From Sulfurimonas crateris (GTDB taxonomy: Bacteria; Campylobacterota; Campylobacteria; Campylobacterales; Sulfurimonadaceae): a stretch of DNA of 64,000 nucleotides. Within the stretch, counting starts at the first letter, position 1. Every line of letters starts with the position of its first letter. Under the pieces are notes generated by a model. The model was not told where the DNA came from. It was given only the letters and a program-made list of their open reading frames with translations, and searched no databases. Below are positions 48,311 through 57,605 of this stretch, one piece after another. Where the stretch lies: contig NZ_SZPX01000003.1 of the NCBI RefSeq assembly GCF_005217605.1, positions 186,001 to 250,000 on the forward strand, in the 5' to 3' direction. Made by a program: the position numbers and the translations under genes.

Positions 48311-49030
48311 CTAATCGTCCTTTTGCGCCAGTGTCGTGCTCCAGCCCTCATAATAGCCATGTTCTGTTTTAATAAGCCCATAGAGCTCCTCTACAACTTT
48401 TCTAACCTCTTCTTCAGTAACCGGATGCACTTTGAGAAGTGCCACTCCATGTTCAAACTCTTCGCTGCTTACGTCATCTTTAAACTCAAACCCGTGTTCT
48501 AGCGCGTTTTTTACAAATCTCTCTTTTTGGGTAGCCGTATCAAATGATACATAGTGTTCTACATCTCTTGATATAGAGAGCTCATCACCCTCTTCTTGAA
48601 GCAGAAACATTATCTTTTGGCTCTGAATATTGTGAAACTCCAACTCTGTTGGAAAAAGATTTTTAGCGTAAAAATCCCACTTTGCATCTTTTACCACATT
48701 GCTTTCATATTTGTAACCGCTATCTTTTAACATTGCGGCACAAAGCGCTTCTAGATTTTTTGAATCTCTTGCATAAAAGTAGAACTCATGCCAACCCTCA
48801 TAAACTCTCTCTCCTACATATTTTGCCATCTTTTGATGTTCTAAAGAGATGATTATAGACTCTTTAAGTTCTAAAAACTGCTCAAAATCCAAACTATTCT
48901 CTTCTATATTGTTTGGTTTTACAAACAGACTATATAACCAAGGATAACTCTCTTCATAATCCTCTACATCAACCTCTACTTCTATATTAACCGTTGCAGA
49001 ATCTTCCACTCTGCTAAATATCTCTCTCAT
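48311..49030 (-). CDS. DUF695 and RraB-like two-domain protein
   Basis: The 239-residue protein has a DUF695-like first half (EESYPWLYSLF and YVGERVYEGWHEFYFYARD) and a second half resembling RraB (LQEEGDELSISRDVEHYVSFD, then EHGFEF and TEHGYYEGWST). E. coli RraB inhibits RNase E. Campylobacterota usually lack RNase E, so the second domain likely has a different partner. It is very acidic and has no membrane segment. Confidence 0.82.
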   Translation of the reverse strand: MREIFSRVEDSATVNIEVEVDVEDYEESYPWLYSLFVKPNNIEENSLDFEQFLELKESIIISLEHQKMAKYVGERVYEGWHEFYFYARDSKNLEALCAAMLKDSGYKYESNVVKDAKWDFYAKNLFPTELEFHNIQSQKIMFLLQEEGDELSISRDVEHYVSFDTATQKERFVKNALEHGFEFKDDVSSEEFEHGVALLKVHPVTEEEVRKVVEELYGLIKTEHGYYEGWSTTLAQKDD

Positions 49031-49098: not shown

Positions 49099-49117
49099 AA
49101 TAATGATTATCATTTTA
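49099..49117. promoter_or_regulatory. Fur box 1 upstream of the porin
   Basis: AATGAT-T-ATCATT (49102-49114) is a perfect inverted repeat matching the core of the Fur consensus, with AT-rich flanks that extend the match. It lies about 85 bases before the porin ATG, and a TACAAT -10-like box follows at 49142-49147. Confidence 0.75.
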
Positions 49118-49157
49118 ATGTTCATTTAAGAATTTTTAATCTACAATTCTGCATATT

Positions 49158-49177
49158 GATAAACGATAATGCTTATC
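49158..49177. promoter_or_regulatory. Fur box 2 in the porin leader
   Basis: GATAAAC-GATAATG-CTTATC consists of two direct GATAA units and one inverted TTATC, the three-hexamer layout of Fur sites. It sits between the predicted -10 box and the ribosome-binding site, where Fur would block transcription. Confidence 0.65.
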
Positions 49178-49200
49178 AAATTCAACTAATAGGAAAGAAG

Positions 49201-50436
49201 ATGAGAGAGTTTAAAAAGAGATTAGGATTAAGTGTAGCTGCGGCGATTATGCTCGCAAGTAGCTTACAGGCGGATACTGCTTCAGATATTGCAGAGCTTA
49301 AAAAAGAGATAGCAGCGCTTAAGGAGCAGACCAAAACCTTGGCAGATGAGACAAGCAACCTGCAGATGGGCTTTAACTACACGACTGTCGATAGTGAAAA
49401 GTCGCATAGCGGACTAGCTGCTGCGGCATCGAAGGTCTACTACTCAAAATCGCCTTTAAGCATCGGCGGTTACGGCGAGATGTACTACTCGCACACAAAC
49501 AAAGAGAGCGGCTCAAACAGCTCTAAAGTTGACGTATACAGATTTGTTCCATATATAGGCTATAAGTTTAGTGACAACATCCTACTAAACGTAGAGCTTG
49601 AGTTTGAGCACGGCGGAGTGGCAAATGACGGAGGCGCTGCAGAGGGCGGAGAGGTTATAGTCGAGTTTATCTATCTTGACTTTTTGATAAATGAAAATGC
49701 AAACATCAGAGTCGGTAATATGTTGATGCCTTTGGGGCTGATTAATGAGAGACATGAACCGACACTTTTTACTACAGTTCAGCGACCAAACACCGCAAAA
49801 CAGATTATTCCGACGACTTGGCATGAGAGCGGCGTAATGGTTTACGGAGACGTATTTGAAGGGTTGGAGTATAAAGTCATGGGAGTAACTGCCCTAAATC
49901 CGACAATAGACAGCGATACAAGCTGGTTAAGAAGTGCGCGCGGCGGCTCGTTTACCAACAATGATCCGAAACTCGGTTTTGTAGCAAGGCTTGATTATAC
50001 AGATATAAATGGGCTGCTGGTTGGGGCTTCGGCTTATATGGACTCAAAGATAAATATGTTCGATATTCACGCGGACTATAAAGTAAACGGCTTTAGAGCA
50101 TATGGCACGTACGCAGAGGCAAAACGCTCAGACGCATTTGAGTTGGCAGGTGCACTATCTCAGGTAAAAGCAAAAGGCGGCTACTTAAATCTTAGCTACG
50201 ACCTTTTAAACTTTAGTTCATCTAGCGATAAACTGCCGCTATTCGTTCAATATGAGAGCGTCAATCCTGCTGATAAACTGACCGATGGAAGCTCGCTTGA
50301 TTCTACCGATACGACGACATTCGGTATAAACTACTTCCCTCACGAGCAGGTAGTTTTAAAAGCTGACTATGCCATGCAGAAGCAAGACGGAGTTGATTCT
50401 GACACATTCAGCCTCTCAATGGGATTCATCTTTTAA
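49201..50436 (+). CDS. Iron-regulated porin-like outer-membrane protein
   Basis: The start is the ATG at 49201, which follows AGGAAAG; a longer frame beginning at 49156 would run through Fur box 2. A signal peptide of about 24 residues ends at LQA-D. A coiled coil (SDIAELKKEIAALKEQTKTL) follows, then a beta-barrel of about 350 residues ending with aromatic F-I-F at the C-terminus, as outer-membrane barrels do. The layout fits phosphate-selective or related trimeric porins (coiled coil then barrel). The substrate is unknown. Two Fur-like boxes precede it. Confidence 0.85.
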   Translation: MREFKKRLGLSVAAAIMLASSLQADTASDIAELKKEIAALKEQTKTLADETSNLQMGFNYTTVDSEKSHSGLAAAASKVYYSKSPLSIGGYGEMYYSHTNKESGSNSSKVDVYRFVPYIGYKFSDNILLNVELEFEHGGVANDGGAAEGGEVIVEFIYLDFLINENANIRVGNMLMPLGLINERHEPTLFTTVQRPNTAKQIIPTTWHESGVMVYGDVFEGLEYKVMGVTALNPTIDSDTSWLRSARGGSFTNNDPKLGFVARLDYTDINGLLVGASAYMDSKINMFDIHADYKVNGFRAYGTYAEAKRSDAFELAGALSQVKAKGGYLNLSYDLLNFSSSSDKLPLFVQYESVNPADKLTDGSSLDSTDTTTFGINYFPHEQVVLKADYAMQKQDGVDSDTFSLSMGFIF

Positions 50437-50449
50437 CTTATGTTACGCG

Positions 50450-50534
50450 CTGAAACGAACTTGTCCGTTTCAGTGGCAGCTGCTTATGTCCCTACAACCC
50501 CCTAAAGCTACGAAAAACAAGTTTTTCGAGAATT
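50450..50534 (+). repeat. Dispersed three-hairpin repeat, copy 2
   Basis: CTGAAACG pairs with CGTTTCAG (50450-50473) and CGAAAAAC with GTTTTTCG (50511-50528). The segment ATGTCCCTACAACCCCCTAA is identical to copy 1 at 30635-30721. The middle hairpin of copy 1 is not kept here; GCAGCTGC stands in its place. The stem difference A-T versus G-C keeps base pairing. It lies 14 bases after the porin stop, in a gap of 187 bases that otherwise shows only AT-rich sequence before the next gene. Confidence 0.8.
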
Positions 50535-50623
50535 TCAAGATGCTTAACGCTCTTATTGACAAAGTTCATTGACAAAAAAAATTTTATTTTATACAATCCG
50601 ACAAATTCAGGAGCCCTAACGCT

Positions 50624-51151
50624 ATGAGAAAACTTTTACTTTACCTACTTATCTTTTTGACACTGCCGCTAAGTGCGAAGATGCTTATATCTCCAATCGA
50701 TGCGATGAAGCAAAACTATGGAGTAAAGAGTGAAATTATCGAAGAGAGCATTATTCTCAGCGGTGCTGAGGCAAAGAAGATTCAAGAGGCATCACAGGTA
50801 AAACTGGGCACTAAGATATTTAAGGTTTTTAAAGCCGTGCAAGATGGCAAAACTCAAGGTTACGGAGTTTTGATCAACAGAAAGATCCGCTCAAAAAATG
50901 GTGTCGTGCTCTACATGATATCGCCAGAGTCTATTTTAAAAGGCATAGAGGTCATAGCTTTTAACGAGCCTATGGAGTATGTGCCTTCTGGAAAATGGAT
51001 GAGCCAATTTGAAAACGTAGATACTCAGACGTCGCTTATGCTCTCCAAAGATATTCCCACCATCACAGGGGCAACTCTAAGTGCGAAAAGCTTTGTAGAC
51101 GGTTCAAGAGTCGCTTTTGCTCTTTACAATGAGCTGTTAAAAGGCAAATAG
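50624..51151 (+). CDS. Exported FMN-binding domain protein
   Basis: The 175-residue protein has a signal peptide (1-18) and a single FMN-binding domain like those of RnfG, NqrC and NosR. The covalent attachment motif S/T-G-A-T appears as TITGATLSAKS near residue 146, where ApbE would link FMN to the threonine. It has no further domain and should face the periplasm. Two membrane-protein genes follow with overlapping stops and starts, and apbE faces the group, so an electron-transfer complex is likely. AGGAG precedes the ATG. Confidence 0.9.
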   Translation: MRKLLLYLLIFLTLPLSAKMLISPIDAMKQNYGVKSEIIEESIILSGAEAKKIQEASQVKLGTKIFKVFKAVQDGKTQGYGVLINRKIRSKNGVVLYMISPESILKGIEVIAFNEPMEYVPSGKWMSQFENVDTQTSLMLSKDIPTITGATLSAKSFVDGSRVAFALYNELLKGK

Positions 51152-51624
51152 TGAAATTCACCGTTATAAAAAACCTTCAAAAAGATAGCGCTATGAGCCT
51201 TATACTGAGAGGTTTTCTTCTTTTTATACTTCTTTATCTTATCTCTGACATCTTTGTTATGAAGTCAAACTTCGGCATCTCGCCCGAAACTCTGAATGCA
51301 ACACTTTTTGGAGATGAAGAGGCTTACATAGACCCGATGAACGAAGCATCTTTTTTGGAGTTTTGGCATACGCAGATATTTTTTATAATGATGATCCTGC
51401 TCACCCTTAGCTCCATCTTCATCAGAGTTGCAAAAAAAAGCAGAGCCATTCTTACAAACACCCTTATGATAAGTGCCATCCTATCACTCATCTCGCTGCC
51501 TTTGGCTTTTTACCTATCAAGCTTTTTTGTAAACATATATCTTGTAACCTATTTTCTCTGGCATCTTGTGGCTCTTTATATGATCGTCTACTCATTTTGG
51601 AAACTAAATGCAAGAAGCGTATAA
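51151..51624 (+). CDS. Membrane protein of the FMN cluster, first subunit
   Basis: The 157-residue protein has four membrane segments (about 20-38, 72-90, 101-122 and 128-149). Histidines lie at FWHTQIFF before segment two and FLWHLVALY in segment four; such pairs could bind haem b. I recognise no named family. The start is GTG, overlapping the preceding stop as TAGTG, and the following gene starts inside its last codons, so translation is coupled. Confidence 0.8.
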   Translation: MKFTVIKNLQKDSAMSLILRGFLLFILLYLISDIFVMKSNFGISPETLNATLFGDEEAYIDPMNEASFLEFWHTQIFFIMMILLTLSSIFIRVAKKSRAILTNTLMISAILSLISLPLAFYLSSFFVNIYLVTYFLWHLVALYMIVYSFWKLNARSV

Positions 51625-52054
51625 ACTATCCATCCTCCACTACTTGGCATTTTCTCTGCTTCTAATAGTTAGTGCGGTTATGCTTTTTGAACACAAGATA
51701 GGCTTTAGTTACAGCGCTGTTTTAGAGTACTACATCGGTAATGAAGAGCAGTTTATCTCTGCTCAGAGTGCAGGAGGAGTTTTAAAAATAGTATTGCCGC
51801 ACATCTTTGTGTTTGGGCTTTTTGCTATGGTGCTTTTGCACTTTTTGGTATTTACGAAGCTAAGAGAGAAAAAAAGTCTGCTTCTTCTCATCTACACTGC
51901 ATTTGGGGTGGCTATGCTTGAGATATTCTCCCCGTTTTTGATTATAAACGGATTTGAATTCTTTGCATATATAAAACTTTTTTCGTTTTTTGCTCTTTTA
52001 GCACTTATCTTATATATCTCATGGCTGCTTTTTGAGAGTATCTCTTATGAGTAG
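51608..52054 (+). CDS. Membrane protein of the FMN cluster, second subunit
   Basis: The 148-residue protein has four predicted membrane segments and histidines within or beside them (ILHYLAF, VLPHIFVF, VLLHFLVF). Its layout mirrors that of the preceding gene, so the two may have arisen by duplication or may form one split cytochrome-like unit; this is inference. The start overlaps the preceding gene by 17 bases. The last 36 bases overlap the convergent apbE. Confidence 0.8.
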   Translation: MQEAYKLSILHYLAFSLLLIVSAVMLFEHKIGFSYSAVLEYYIGNEEQFISAQSAGGVLKIVLPHIFVFGLFAMVLLHFLVFTKLREKKSLLLLIYTAFGVAMLEIFSPFLIINGFEFFAYIKLFSFFALLALILYISWLLFESISYE

Positions 52055-52972
52055 GTTCTTTGTATACTCTGATATATTTTTGCCAATAACAAGCTCGCCA
52101 TCGCTCTGCATAACGATATAACCTACTCCAAGAGCATCCAAAAACTCATAAGCCTTTTTCATCGGCATTACGCTTGCCGCAGTCGCATAAGCATCCAAGT
52201 CACTACTTGAAATCTCGCTAACAAGAGTTATAGAGACAAAGAGGCTCTGCGGCTTTTTGGTTTTTGGGTCGATTAGGTGATTATTCTTGGTTGAGGTGAC
52301 ATATCTGTTATAGTTTCCGCTAGTTGTGATACCAAGGTCATCTTTTGTAGTCTCAAACGATAACAAAACATCATCTTCTTTAAAAGGACTTTGCACCTCT
52401 ATCCTGCACAAAGAGAGACATCTTATATCTCCGCTTGCCGCTATTACAACGCTCTTTGCATCTTTGCTTCTAAAGAACTCCGCAGCTTTATCCACGCCGA
52501 AACCTTTGCCCATACCGCCGAGGTCTACTTTTGCGCTCTCCTCTAAAAAAGCCTCTTTTTCATTAAATCTCAGAGCGCCAAAGGAAACATACGCACCTGC
52601 TAACTCAGCCAAAGATGCAACACGCTCATCCTCTCCGAATCTGTAGAGATCTTTTGTGATCGAGCCGATAGTAATGTCGAAATATCCATCTGTTGCGGCA
52701 TAGTACCTTTTACTCAAAAGAAGTGCCTCATAACTAAAAGTGTCAAGCTCTGCGTGTCTGTTTTTGTTGAGTCGGTATATATTTGCATCTGGATCGTAAG
52801 ATGAGAGAGACTTCTCAATCTCTTTTATGATATCAAACCCCTCTGTTATAAGGTCGGCATCCCTCTCATCTGCAGTGATAGTGACAAGAGTGGACATAAT
52901 TACTTGAGTTCTAGAAAGAGTTTTGGCATCTAAAAAAGAGAGAAGAAGTAAAAAAAGTGTGAGTAGTTTCAA
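52019..52972 (-). CDS. apbE: FAD:protein FMN transferase ApbE
   Basis: ApbE attaches FMN covalently to threonine of FMN-binding proteins in the periplasm. The 317 residues have a signal peptide (to about residue 16) without a lipobox cysteine, then MSTLVTI, DLGGMGKGFGVDKA near residue 150, ASGDIRC and TSGNYNRY, and the C-terminal DLDAYATAASVM. The start is TTG without a strong ribosome-binding site, 17 bases after ribB. The target is probably the FMN-binding protein encoded by the facing operon. Confidence 0.95.
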   Translation of the reverse strand: MKLLTLFLLLLSFLDAKTLSRTQVIMSTLVTITADERDADLITEGFDIIKEIEKSLSSYDPDANIYRLNKNRHAELDTFSYEALLLSKRYYAATDGYFDITIGSITKDLYRFGEDERVASLAELAGAYVSFGALRFNEKEAFLEESAKVDLGGMGKGFGVDKAAEFFRSKDAKSVVIAASGDIRCLSLCRIEVQSPFKEDDVLLSFETTKDDLGITTSGNYNRYVTSTKNNHLIDPKTKKPQSLFVSITLVSEISSSDLDAYATAASVMPMKKAYEFLDALGVGYIVMQSDGELVIGKNISEYTKNLLIRDTLKKQP

Positions 52973-52989
52973 GAGAGTTTAGATATTTG

Positions 52990-54018
52990 CTAAATATCTA
53001 TAACCTCGTTTATCTCTAACCCAAAGCCGCCAAGTCCTACAAACTCGGTCGCTTTCATGGAGGTTAGCAGGTTCATCTTTGAGATGCCGAACGATTTAAG
53101 TATCTGAGCACCTATTCCAAACTCTTTCATGGCAGCGTTGTCATGGTGTGTAGGCTTGTTAATGAAGATCAAAACACCGCTGTTCTGTTTTAGGTACTCG
53201 ATAGACAAGATAAGATTGCTGTACTTTTTCTGGTTTAAGAGAAGTTCCATATCCGGTATAACGTTATGGACTCTTACGTTTGCCACAGATGCAACATTAT
53301 GAAACACTATCGCAGTATGTTCTATTTTGTCATGGTCGCTAAATGTGTACTTCTTTACCTTTGTACCGAAAAACTCAATATCTTCTACCTCAAGCTCGTT
53401 TACAAGCCTCTCGTTCGCAAGACGATACTCGACAATATCTGAGATAAAAACGGTTTTCAAGTTGTGCTTTTCGCCGAATATATCAAGATCGTCACGGCGT
53501 GCCATCGTGCCGTCCTCTTTGATTATCTCACAAATAACCGATGACTCGCTAAGTCCTGCAAGACGGCATAGATCAACAGAACCCTCAGTATGACCTGTTC
53601 TCACAAGTGTGCCGCCATCTTTTGCTATAAGAGGAAATATATGACCCGGTTTTACAAGCTCATCAGCGTGGCTGATCGGGTTTGCCAAGATCTTGATGGT
53701 ATCGTCCCTCTCCTTTGCCGAGATGCCTGTTAGAGCATTTTTTGCATCGACTGAGACCGTAAACGCCGTCTCATAAGAGGATGTGTTTGAGCTTACCATC
53801 GGGTTAAGTTCAAGTCTTGTAGCGATATTTTTGCTGATCGCCACACAGATAAGCCCTCTTGCATGCGTTGCCATAAAGTTTACATGAGCCGGCGTAGAAA
53901 AAGCGGATGCATAGACCAGATCACCCTCGTTCTCTCTATCTTCATCATCGATCATAATGACCATGTGACCCTTTTTTATCTCGTCAATCGCTTCTAGTAC
54001 TCTTTGTGTCGGTGTCAT
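52990..54018 (-). CDS. ribB: 3,4-dihydroxy-2-butanone 4-phosphate synthase with degenerate RibA domain
   Basis: The first 200 residues are a normal RibB: MIDDEDRENEGDLVYA, then SHADELVKPGHIFPL and RTGHTEGSVDLCRLAG. It makes the four-carbon unit of riboflavin from ribulose 5-phosphate. The C-terminal part aligns in layout with GTP cyclohydrolase II but lacks the cysteine trio that binds zinc and the R-x-x-x-G-H catalytic region, so only RibB activity is expected. Epsilon RibBA proteins are known to have this decay. It is followed by apbE after 17 bases. Confidence 0.93.
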   Translation of the reverse strand: MTPTQRVLEAIDEIKKGHMVIMIDDEDRENEGDLVYASAFSTPAHVNFMATHARGLICVAISKNIATRLELNPMVSSNTSSYETAFTVSVDAKNALTGISAKERDDTIKILANPISHADELVKPGHIFPLIAKDGGTLVRTGHTEGSVDLCRLAGLSESSVICEIIKEDGTMARRDDLDIFGEKHNLKTVFISDIVEYRLANERLVNELEVEDIEFFGTKVKKYTFSDHDKIEHTAIVFHNVASVANVRVHNVIPDMELLLNQKKYSNLILSIEYLKQNSGVLIFINKPTHHDNAAMKEFGIGAQILKSFGISKMNLLTSMKATEFVGLGGFGLEINEVIDI

Positions 54019-55438: not shown

Positions 55439-55723
55439 TTATAACCTACCTTTAAGATTATCGTAAATTTTATTTTTTTCTCTTTTCCATACGCTCAGCA
55501 CAAGAACAACTATCTCTTCGTCTTTTATCTCATATGCAAGTCTATACCCAATATTTCTTAGCTTGATTTTATATACGTTTTCATATCCAGAGAGCTTGTC
55601 CTTCACTACTCTTGGACTCTCTAGCTGTTCTTGCAGTTTCTTTTTAAATTGTTCTTTTATCGTAGAGTTTAATTTTTTCCATTCTTTTAAGGCTTGAGGC
55701 ATAAATTCAAGATTATAGCTCAT
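55439..55723 (-). CDS. RelE/ParE-family toxin
   Basis: The 94-residue protein has the RelE pattern: FMPQALKEWKKLNSTIKEQF, then LSGYENVYKIKLRNIGYRLAYEI, and VVLVLSVWKREKNKIYDNL. RelE toxins cleave mRNA on the ribosome; the basic residues K-R-E-K-N-K near the end and R in NIGYRLAY are where catalytic residues lie. It overlaps the antitoxin by 11 bases, which is typical of these pairs. Confidence 0.92.
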   Translation of the reverse strand: MSYNLEFMPQALKEWKKLNSTIKEQFKKKLQEQLESPRVVKDKLSGYENVYKIKLRNIGYRLAYEIKDEEIVVLVLSVWKREKNKIYDNLKGRL

Positions 55724-55964
55724 TTACATCTACTCTAATTGGCTTTTCATCACTGTTTTTGGCTTTTTCTACTTCCAATGAAAGGTAGTAGTCATCTATA
55801 ATATCCATCATCTTCTCATAGACTTTGCTCGGAACTAGATAGGCACTGGGTATGTTATGGTTAAGTATGGCGATGGCTTCATCTCCAGCTTCACTTAAAA
55901 GCTGTGTTGGAGATTTTTTTAGCTCTGTTATGCTCGCAGTATAGTTTGATAAAATCGGTTGCAT
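55713..55964 (-). CDS. Phd/YefM-family antitoxin
   Basis: The 83-residue protein starts with the Phd fold SNYTASITELKKSPTQLLSEA, then EAIAILNHNIPSAYLVPSKVYEKM, and an acidic-helical tail that would cover the toxin. The pairing is the common Phd antitoxin with RelE toxin. Upstream there is a near-consensus promoter with a palindrome where the antitoxin would bind to repress itself. AAAGGA precedes the ATG. Confidence 0.92.
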   Translation of the reverse strand: MQPILSNYTASITELKKSPTQLLSEAGDEAIAILNHNIPSAYLVPSKVYEKMMDIIDDYYLSLEVEKAKNSDEKPIRVDVNEL

Positions 55965-56624: not shown

Positions 56625-57605
56625 TTAAATTTCTTTTTCCAAAGCTTCCCAATGTCCGCCCTTAAGGCTTCCAACTCTTTGAACTCTGTTTTCATCTTTT
56701 AGTTTTTTTATAACTTTTTTCACACCGGATTCACTCATATCCAGTTGTTGACATATCTGCATGATGGTTATTTTATTATCTTGCATAATCAAATCCAAGA
56801 TTTTTTGGTCACTTTTTTGGTCACTTTTTTGGTCACTTTTTTTAGATTCTTTTATATACTCTTTTAGTGATTGCGTTATTATCTCTAACATAAACTCTAT
56901 AAAAGGTGTAGATTCTCCCGCACTTCCAGCATCTTCTAGCGCTTGATAGTATTCTAGTTGATGATTTCTTACCACACTTTCTATTGGCATATATGTAAAA
57001 ATATCTTTAAAAGATTTAAGGATTACACTCTGCCAAAGTCGTCCGATGCGTCCATTACCATCGCTAAATGGATGGATGAACTCAAACTCGTAGTGAAATA
57101 CACAACTTGCAATAAGCGGATGTTCGTCTGTACTTTGAAGCCACTCAAACAGCTCATCCATTAGTTTTGGTACTTGACTAGGCGGTGGTGCAACATGTGT
57201 TACGCCATCTTTGCCGCCGATACCTACGTTGCTGTTTCTATATGTCCCTGCATTATTTAAGAGATTTTCCATAAGGTACTTGTGCGCCTTTAATAGGTCT
57301 TTTTCATTTTTATAGCTGTATTTTTCTATATTGTCATACGCTTCAATCGCCCCTTTTACCTCTTCTATCTCTCTCATGGTTCCTAGAACTGTTTTGCCCT
57401 CTATTATGCTGGTAACTTTTGCTTCATCAAAGGTGTTTCCCTCTATTTGCAGCGTCCCTGTAATTGATCTGATCCTATTTTTTTTACGAAGTCTTAGAGT
57501 ATTATAATTTTTATCTATATATTTTATATCAGATATAAGCTCAGATATTTCACTTACTTGCTTTATGATTTTTGATGTATTAGTATATGGCGGTTTATAG
57601 CTCAT
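56625..57605 (-). CDS. Fic-family AMP-transferase with internal inhibitory helix and winged helix
   Basis: The Fic motif HPFSDGNGRIGR near residue 177 is complete, so AMPylation activity is expected. Near the N-terminus TLQIEGNTFDEAKV contains the inhibitory (S/T)-x3-E-(G/N) motif that blocks ATP binding, the class II arrangement. The C-terminus has a winged helix (ITIMQICQQLDMSESGVKK) joined by a linker with a KSDQ repeat. The target is unknown. Length 326 residues. Confidence 0.93.
   Translation of the reverse strand: MSYKPPYTNTSKIIKQVSEISELISDIKYIDKNYNTLRLRKKNRIRSITGTLQIEGNTFDEAKVTSIIEGKTVLGTMREIEEVKGAIEAYDNIEKYSYKNEKDLLKAHKYLMENLLNNAGTYRNSNVGIGGKDGVTHVAPPPSQVPKLMDELFEWLQSTDEHPLIASCVFHYEFEFIHPFSDGNGRIGRLWQSVILKSFKDIFTYMPIESVVRNHQLEYYQALEDAGSAGESTPFIEFMLEIITQSLKEYIKESKKSDQKSDQKSDQKILDLIMQDNKITIMQICQQLDMSESGVKKVIKKLKDENRVQRVGSLKGGHWEALEKEI
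56801..56836 (-). repeat. 12-bp tandem repeat within the fic gene
   Basis: Three exact copies of TTTTTTGGTCAC in direct repeat. On the coding strand they encode KSDQ units in the linker between the Fic core and the winged helix. Copy number could vary by slippage without changing the frame. Confidence 0.9.

Follow-up and report, generated by a model that had tools for sequence, protein, structure and literature searches.

The window analyzed here is a 64,000-nucleotide stretch of the Sulfurimonas crateris genome (NZ_SZPX01000003.1, positions 186,001 to 250,000). Within it, two Fur-like boxes precede a porin gene, which is followed on the same strand by genes encoding an FMN_bind protein and two membrane proteins (MP1 and MP2); apbE and a riboflavin gene face this row from the opposite strand.

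49099..49117, no strand: Fur-like box 1, AATAATGATTATCATTTTA, matching 16/19 Fur consensus positions
49156..49183, no strand: Fur-like box 2, TTGATAAACGATAATGCTTATCAAATTC, 14/19 matches by hand count
49201..50436, + strand: porin, Porin_O_P-type barrel with an N-terminal coiled-coil-like segment (Pfam PF07396, E 1.6e-5, above cut-off)
50624..51151, + strand: exported FMN_bind protein with a TGAT motif, predicted FMN-Thr151
51151..51624, + strand: MP1, four-helix membrane protein with invariant His73 (helix 2) and nearly invariant His138 (helix 4)
51608..52054, + strand: MP2, MP1 paralogue with invariant His65 and His78, both in helix 2, 13 apart
52019..52972, − strand: ApbE, FAD:protein FMN transferase (PF02424, E 9.4e-51)
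52990..54018, − strand: RibB/RibA-like bifunctional riboflavin protein (NCBIfam PRK09314, 535.8 bits vs cut-off 432)

The end of the FMN gene shares one base with the start of MP1, the MP1 and MP2 genes overlap by 17 bases, and apbE overlaps the 3' end of MP2. An earlier, sequence-only reading of this DNA had given the same coordinates, gene order, and facing apbE-ribB pair, and the two Fur-like boxes it placed ahead of the porin are borne out by their consensus matches; box 2 lies 45 to 18 bases upstream of the porin start.

Recurrence and predicted iron control of the block

Among 299 genomes of the order, 31 carry the FMN protein, and the same 31 carry MP1. At 87 of 90 distinct loci the FMN gene is immediately followed by both membrane protein genes, mostly across a gap of 0–8 bases as measured from profile edges. 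Where enough sequence was present, the porin gene preceded the FMN gene on the same strand (67/84 distinct loci) and apbE lay within 4.5 kb of it (70/82 loci, facing it in 65). The sequence-only reading had proposed co-occurrence in other Campylobacterota as a check, and the gene set indeed recurs, syntenic, both there and in two groups outside the phylum. Its ribB gene held up in part: the product is a RibB/RibA-like bifunctional protein, and the gene adjoins apbE at 7/8 same-genus loci but at none of the other loci in that set, placing it outside the conserved set beyond the genus. The hosts of the block are deep-sea and hot-spring bacteria; the cultured Sulfurimonas indica NW8N is one of the carriers.

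In a genome-wide scan, box 1 was one of three places with three or fewer mismatches to the Fur consensus. Counting a box as equivalent at ≥14/19 consensus matches, we found Fur-like boxes upstream of 56 of 63 non-redundant block porins, vs 3% of 561 control upstream regions, and at about 12 of 17 loci that carry a single membrane protein gene (see below). Both Fur and FeoB are encoded in the window's genome. Judged by the conservation of the boxes, predicted control of the block by Fur and iron is strongly supported. E. coli-type Fur boxes were also looked for at Aquificota loci, and none was found; a variant operator there, TGAGAAT-N-ATTCTCA, scored only slightly above shuffles and is not claimed. 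Because these loci lack E. coli-type boxes and two of them carry a weak Cytochrome_P460-like protein, the module may serve other acceptors in Aquificota.

Neighboring genes vary. An operon for imelysin and a di-haem peroxidase (DHOR), a known Fur-linked iron-uptake set (PMC3143127), adjoins the FMN gene in nine loci; imelysin was not found in the window's genome. At one locus the block is adjoined by a gene for DUF4198, a partner of iron-tied flavinylated PepSY clusters (PMC8238504). A CxxCH multi-haem cytochrome is encoded near the block in twelve loci (repeats included), and a cytochrome b561 gene comes next after some single-gene loci.

The flavin protein and its membrane partners

Taken alone, the window's FMN protein matches FMN_bind (PF04205) at E 0.0049, under the Pfam cut-off; all 31 homologues match it at E ≤ 0.1 (best 9e-8), and the family profile matches RnfG in the PDB (3.5e-8). 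The TGAT motif pointed out in the sequence-only reading occupies residues 148–151, with G149, A150, and T151 invariant among the 31 homologues. This domain match, together with a [S/T]GA[S/T] flavinylation motif, assigns the protein to FMN_bind on sequence grounds, and a signal peptide was recognized by eye. It is the only FMN_bind-family protein found in the genome. The block's own ApbE, whose PF02424 match scores 173.3 bits vs a curated cut-off of 25.6, is likewise the only ApbE found, and this adjacent, cognate enzyme is predicted to attach FMN covalently to Thr151.

MP1 and MP2 are paralogous, one profile finding both. The sequence-only reading had allowed that they might belong to a known, unrelated family; no such family was matched. 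Neither protein has a Pfam, NCBIfam, or PDB sequence match, NqrB/RnfD-type matches were absent from Pfam and NCBIfam, and none of 61 MP1/MP2 members matched the PepSY-like, MsrQ-like, or DUF4405 Pfam profiles at E ≤ 0.1. Weak Pfam matches to YoqO, DUF3180, DUF2818, DUF3792, and others, each involving one member, were rejected. A distant MP1-like match, by eye a NicO-type transporter without an FMN gene, was set aside, and a plasmid search using MP1 gave no match. The literature we found, mostly papers available without subscription, does not describe such a membrane pair.

Modelled as separate subunits with AlphaFold2, both proteins are predicted to have four helices (mean pLDDT 91.5 for MP1 and 94.6 for MP2), in line with the overlapping, histidine-bearing four-helix proteins first noted from sequence. 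In the structure search suggested at that stage, Foldseek and VIA-align 2 returned only generic helix-bundle matches to the separate models (best Z 8.3, unspecific), and neither model convincingly matched a known cytochrome fold. The helix layout, together with an inspection by eye of which ends carry positive charge, predicts cytoplasmic N and C termini.

In Campylobacterota-type alignments, MP1 H73 is invariant in 85 rows, with H138 kept in at least 90%, and MP2 H65 and H78 are invariant in 83 rows; H138 has no counterpart outside Campylobacterota. The only conserved acidic residue in the helices is E70, near the periplasmic end. At most Aquificota loci examined MP1 and MP2 are fused, in one example as a 304-residue protein, and a third group has a single MP gene. 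This single-gene form contains all three invariant histidines in 18/18 cases, and the duplicated forms of two phyla split the triad 1+2. MP1 keeps one histidine and MP2 two, and therefore there is one complete triad per dimer. Such a partition points to a redox site assembled from both subunits, most probably one that binds haem b. In the best tree, built as a test of recent duplication within Campylobacterota, the MP1 halves of Campylobacterota and Aquificota join, as do the MP2 halves, with support of only 76%; the test did not reject separate duplications (p 0.31).

A proposed electron route and its alternatives

The sequence-only reading is, as a whole, partly supported. Its core, iron-regulated flavin electron transfer involving two histidine-bearing membrane proteins, withstood two checks that could have refuted it: those proteins match no known family, and the genes co-occur in synteny in other genomes. 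We propose that the block is a Fur-repressed system for electron export from quinol to periplasmic FMN in the service of iron acquisition, a reading to which we assign a probability of roughly 0.55. The block appears to move electrons across the inner membrane to an exported flavin protein, and the purpose of this path is probably the reduction of ferric iron for uptake. MP1 and MP2 would form an inner-membrane heterodimer, with one composite redox site built from MP1 H73 and MP2 H65 and H78 (plus MP1 H138 in Campylobacterota). The likeliest occupant would be haem b, bis-His ligated across the MP1-MP2 interface on the periplasmic side; H78 would lie toward the cytoplasmic face, where it would be part of either a second haem site or a site for (mena)quinol. 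We infer that electrons pass from the quinol pool through MP1-MP2 to FMN, which ApbE would have joined to the exported protein at Thr151. The porin would admit Fe(III) or Fe(III) complexes, the reduced flavin would reduce them, and FeoB would import the resulting Fe(II).

Several observations count against this model. Three invariant histidines fall short of two complete bis-His sites, the fourth is missing outside Campylobacterota, the separate MP models lack a convincing cytochrome-fold match, and the Aquificota loci lack E. coli-type Fur boxes, two of them carrying the weak P460-like protein. At odds somewhat short of even, we further suggest that MP1/MP2 are dimeric membrane cytochromes of a new class, present in Campylobacterota, Aquificota, and at least one other group. 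On this view an originally symmetric homodimer divided its three ligand histidines between its subunits and so turned into an asymmetric heterodimer or a fusion; one functional haem or quinol site would remain per dimer, and the cytochrome would drive Fur-controlled, flavin-based ferric reduction.

The same electron path could instead belong to respiration or detoxification, as a reductase branch whose acceptor might, for example, be organic, a metal, or a peroxide; Fur would then control it because it stands in for iron-rich cytochromes during iron shortage. Flavin-for-haem substitution in iron scarcity has been proposed (PMC8238504), and the Aquificota versions without Fur boxes near a cytochrome-like protein, the cytochrome b561 downstream at some single-gene loci, and the multi-haem cytochrome c at several Campylobacterota loci fit such a branch. 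The imelysin/DHOR operons beside nine loci and the Fur boxes conserved in two distant groups point to iron acquisition, however, and we consider the branch unlikely, if deserving of some weight. Inward flow is quite improbable: here the FMN protein would oxidize periplasmic Fe(II) and pass electrons through MP1-MP2 to quinone, a flow tied to the handling of Fe(III) in the manner of EfeUOB-like systems linked to a peroxidase. Co-location with imelysin and the di-haem peroxidase, linked to EfeB-like peroxidases (PMC3143127), favors this direction, but flavinylation-linked iron systems are taken as reductive (PMC8238504), and FeoB, for Fe(II), is encoded in the window's genome, where no imelysin was found. 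Equally improbable is that MP1-MP2 form a permease for iron or another metal bound by the membrane histidines, with the FMN protein as a reductase served by another donor; Fur control, the porin in the same gene row, and the reductase-like partner agree with this, but the linkage is strictly to FMN_bind and not to transporter partners, E70 is the sole conserved acidic residue of the helices, and FeoB is already encoded.

Relation to known systems

Electron export onto flavinylated proteins is known in many bacteria, and many apbE gene clusters have no identified membrane partner. Flavinylation-linked electron transfer is already known; what appears new, judged by the papers found, is the MP1/MP2 membrane module, a candidate class of partner for such clusters whose three histidines make a well-defined target for mutation. 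Electron export for iron acquisition would also provide a plausible reductive uptake route for vent and hot-spring chemolithoautotrophs among the Campylobacterota and Aquificota, and the module may be a natural example of how a homodimer becomes a heterodimer when its two subunits lose complementary candidate ligands.

Among iron-related systems, the ICMP-EfeB-like imelysin/DHOR operon resembles the block in being Fur-linked and adjoins the FMN gene at the nine loci above (PMC3143127), but consists of separate protein families and was not found in the window's genome. The Fur-controlled porin psp of Geobacter metallireducens, considered possibly involved in iron transport, resembles the block porin by description alone; the passages considered here name neither an FMN protein nor a partner in the membrane (Rodionov et al. 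2004, PMC545781). RnfG and NqrC belong to the same domain family as the block's FMN protein (FMN_bind, PF04205), with the flavinylation motif near the C-terminal end. Unlike them, the block's protein is apparently soluble and exported, given its signal peptide, and its partners are MP1/MP2 instead of NqrB/RnfD in a genome where no other FMN_bind protein was found. The closest parallels to MP1/MP2 may be the PepSY-like, MsrQ-like, and DUF4405/FezC cytochromes, small membrane proteins whose helix histidines are most conserved, which are encoded with apbE and flavinylated proteins and are partly Fur-regulated or iron-linked; the haem sites of FezC are modelled as formed by homodimerization (PMC8238504, PMC11334425). 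In contrast to these families, MP1 and MP2 match none of their Pfam profiles, have four helices per subunit with a histidine triad divided between paralogous subunits, and reside in a gene set of their own with a porin.

A conserved block of porin, FMN protein and paired membrane proteins

The gene set at 49099-54018 comprises two Fur-like boxes, a porin, an exported FMN_bind protein and two predicted four-helix membrane proteins (MP1 and MP2), with apbE and ribB on the opposite strand:

49099-49117, Fur-like box 1
49156-49183, Fur-like box 2
49201-50436, + strand, porin
50624-51151, + strand, FMN protein
51151-51624, + strand, MP1
51608-52054, + strand, MP2
52019-52972, - strand, apbE
52990-54018, - strand, ribB (RibB/RibA-like bifunctional protein)

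MP1 begins at the final base of the FMN gene stop codon and MP2 begins 17 bases upstream of the MP1 end, overlaps that suggest coupled translation.

An MP1 search of the 299 genomes of the Sulfurimonas crateris order matched 32, one of which (G145) was excluded as NicO-like. The remaining 31 are exactly those matched by the FMN-protein profile, bearing out the co-occurrence expected from the sequence-only reading. We tallied 98 distinct FMN loci, drawn from the order-genome hits and 80 further GTDB loci. Two MP genes directly follow the FMN gene in 87 of the 90 loci with sufficient downstream sequence; one other has a single MP gene and two have none, including L107, a second copy in isolate OB5, which carries the full block elsewhere in its genome (L093). 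The porin lies upstream on the same strand in 67/84 loci with sufficient upstream sequence, and ApbE lies within 4.5 kb of the FMN gene in 70/82, facing it in 65. ribB, which the sequence-only reading had counted as a member, is adjacent in seven of the eight loci that come from the window's genus, and no other locus in that comparison has it there; we therefore regard it as a neighbor rather than part of the block.

The porin is a Porin_O_P match exceeding the Pfam cut-off. Alone, the window's FMN protein gives a sub-threshold FMN_bind match in Pfam; all 31 aligned family members match FMN_bind at E ≤ 0.1, the family profile matches RnfG in the PDB (3.5e-8), and the GAT motif (G149-A150-T151) is invariant. 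The closest named relatives of this protein are Sulfurimonas records. Since a scan of the window's genome found one ApbE only and no second FMN_bind-type protein, this ApbE very probably serves the FMN protein of the block.

Elsewhere in the window, two small overlapping genes (55439-55964, - strand) resemble by eye a RelE/YafQ-type toxin and antitoxin, and a Fic-like protein (56625-57605, - strand) bears an HPFxDGNGRxGR motif, also noted by eye, and a repeated KSDQ stretch.

Paralogy and histidine partition in MP1 and MP2

Apart from single stray matches, neither MP1 nor MP2 matched Pfam, NCBIfam or PDB sequences. One profile retrieves both, indicating that they are paralogues. AlphaFold2 predicts confident four-helix bundles (pLDDT 91.5 for MP1 and 94.6 for MP2), and fold comparisons of the two models gave no clear match to a known fold. 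The distribution of charges, assessed by eye, places both termini in the cytoplasm and the conserved helix 1-2 loop in the periplasm. The family occurs in 71/136 genomes of Aquificota (the phylum of the Hydrogenothermaceae genome bearing L137), where most examined loci encode both halves downstream of the FMN gene in one ORF, some 304-325 residues long, and a minority have two separate genes. In the phylum of bacterium UBP10_UBA1149 (L142), 20/395 genomes matched; in the examined loci there is only one MP gene, which almost always comes after porin and FMN genes.

We compared columns 89, 91 and 104 in a joint alignment of single-gene, MP1-type and MP2-type proteins. All three are histidine in 18/18 single-gene proteins. 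MP1-type proteins keep column 89 (window H73; 30/30), have lost column 104, and have histidine at column 91 in just a few Aquificota first halves; MP2-type proteins keep columns 91 and 104 (H65 and H78; 30/30) and have lost column 89 except in a few. Across 83-85 Campylobacterota-type rows, the invariant residues are H65 and H78 in MP2, and in MP1 H73 is one of four; a fourth histidine, MP1 H138, is limited to Campylobacterota. Each dimer, whether two proteins or a fusion, thus keeps one complete histidine set, as expected if the set makes a site across the interface. In the best tree, built without the histidine columns, the MP1 halves of Campylobacterota and Aquificota group together, as do the MP2 halves, with moderate support (76%). 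This grouping is what one old duplication would give, and a tree test did not reject independent duplications.

Fur-like promoter boxes and iron-linked neighbors

For each block porin, we took the highest-scoring 19-base Fur match in its upstream region, with a threshold of at least 14. This was reached in 56/63 non-redundant porin loci versus 3% of 561 upstream regions taken as controls from these loci, and the block promoter is among only three sites within three mismatches of the Fur box in the entire window genome. Another Fur-box-like site in this genome (G000:C4:164105-164123, L174) precedes a Phenol_MetA_deg-type outer-membrane protein gene. In the distant single-gene group, Fur-like boxes precede the porin (about 12/17 reaching or exceeding the upper shuffle range) and were not found upstream of the second gene. 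This Fur box was not found in Aquificota upstream regions; an imperfect palindrome, TTGAGA-N5-TCTCAA, is frequent there (L216, L222, L223, L226, L231) and is a possible operator.

Divergent from the Fur-box porin promoter lies a gene for a DUF695 and RraB-like protein (48311-49030, - strand). Because it recurs beside the block in several same-genus loci (L031-L034), it may share the porin's predicted iron control.

In nine distinct loci (L107, L108, L109, L130, L131, L139, L141, L045, L049), the FMN gene lies next to an operon encoding imelysins together with a di-haem oxidoreductase (DHOR) and a membrane protein resembling fatty-acid hydroxylases (PF04116); imelysin operons are iron-uptake sets linked to Fur (PMC3143127). 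At one locus in a distant genome (L060:3093-6442), the FMN gene follows a DUF4198 gene, a domain tied by Meheust et al. to PepSY clusters that are flavinylated and linked to iron (PMC8238504); farther upstream is the gene for a P-type ATPase that carries a heavy-metal-associated domain. Rodionov et al. described psp, a porin under Fur control that weakly resembles PF07396, has tandem Fur boxes and has a homologue in Aquifex (PMC545781); it is plausibly the porin of this block.

A candidate electron route and its known counterparts

Beyond the synteny, fusion, histidine partition and Fur boxes established here, we infer a cofactor, donor, electron direction and substrate for MP1-MP2. Inner-membrane quinol would pass electrons to MP1-MP2, where haem b, bound between the two subunits by MP1 H73 and MP2 H65 close to the periplasmic side, would relay them to covalent FMN; the FMN protein would then reduce ferric iron entering via the porin, and Fe(II) would be taken up by FeoB, which is present in the window's genome. 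MP2 H78 lies on helix 2, in its cytoplasmic half, and may serve a second haem or a quinol site.

Some loci have a multi-haem cytochrome c beside the block; others have a cytochrome b561 or a weakly P460-like protein there. These neighbors fit an electron-transfer role, and their variety warns that acceptors may differ between lineages. An exported Cytochrome_C7/C554-like protein of ~367 residues is encoded near the block in L034, L035, L036, L037, L084, L087, L118, L120 and L122; its gene sits between MP2 and apbE in L034-L037, and the L034 copy has five CxxCH motifs.

Flavinylation-linked membrane electron transfer has already been described, including iron-linked classes and histidine-bearing DUF4405/FezC cytochromes (PMC8238504, PMC11334425). 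MP1 and MP2 follow the logic of these systems, but at the sequence level they have no detectable membership in these families.
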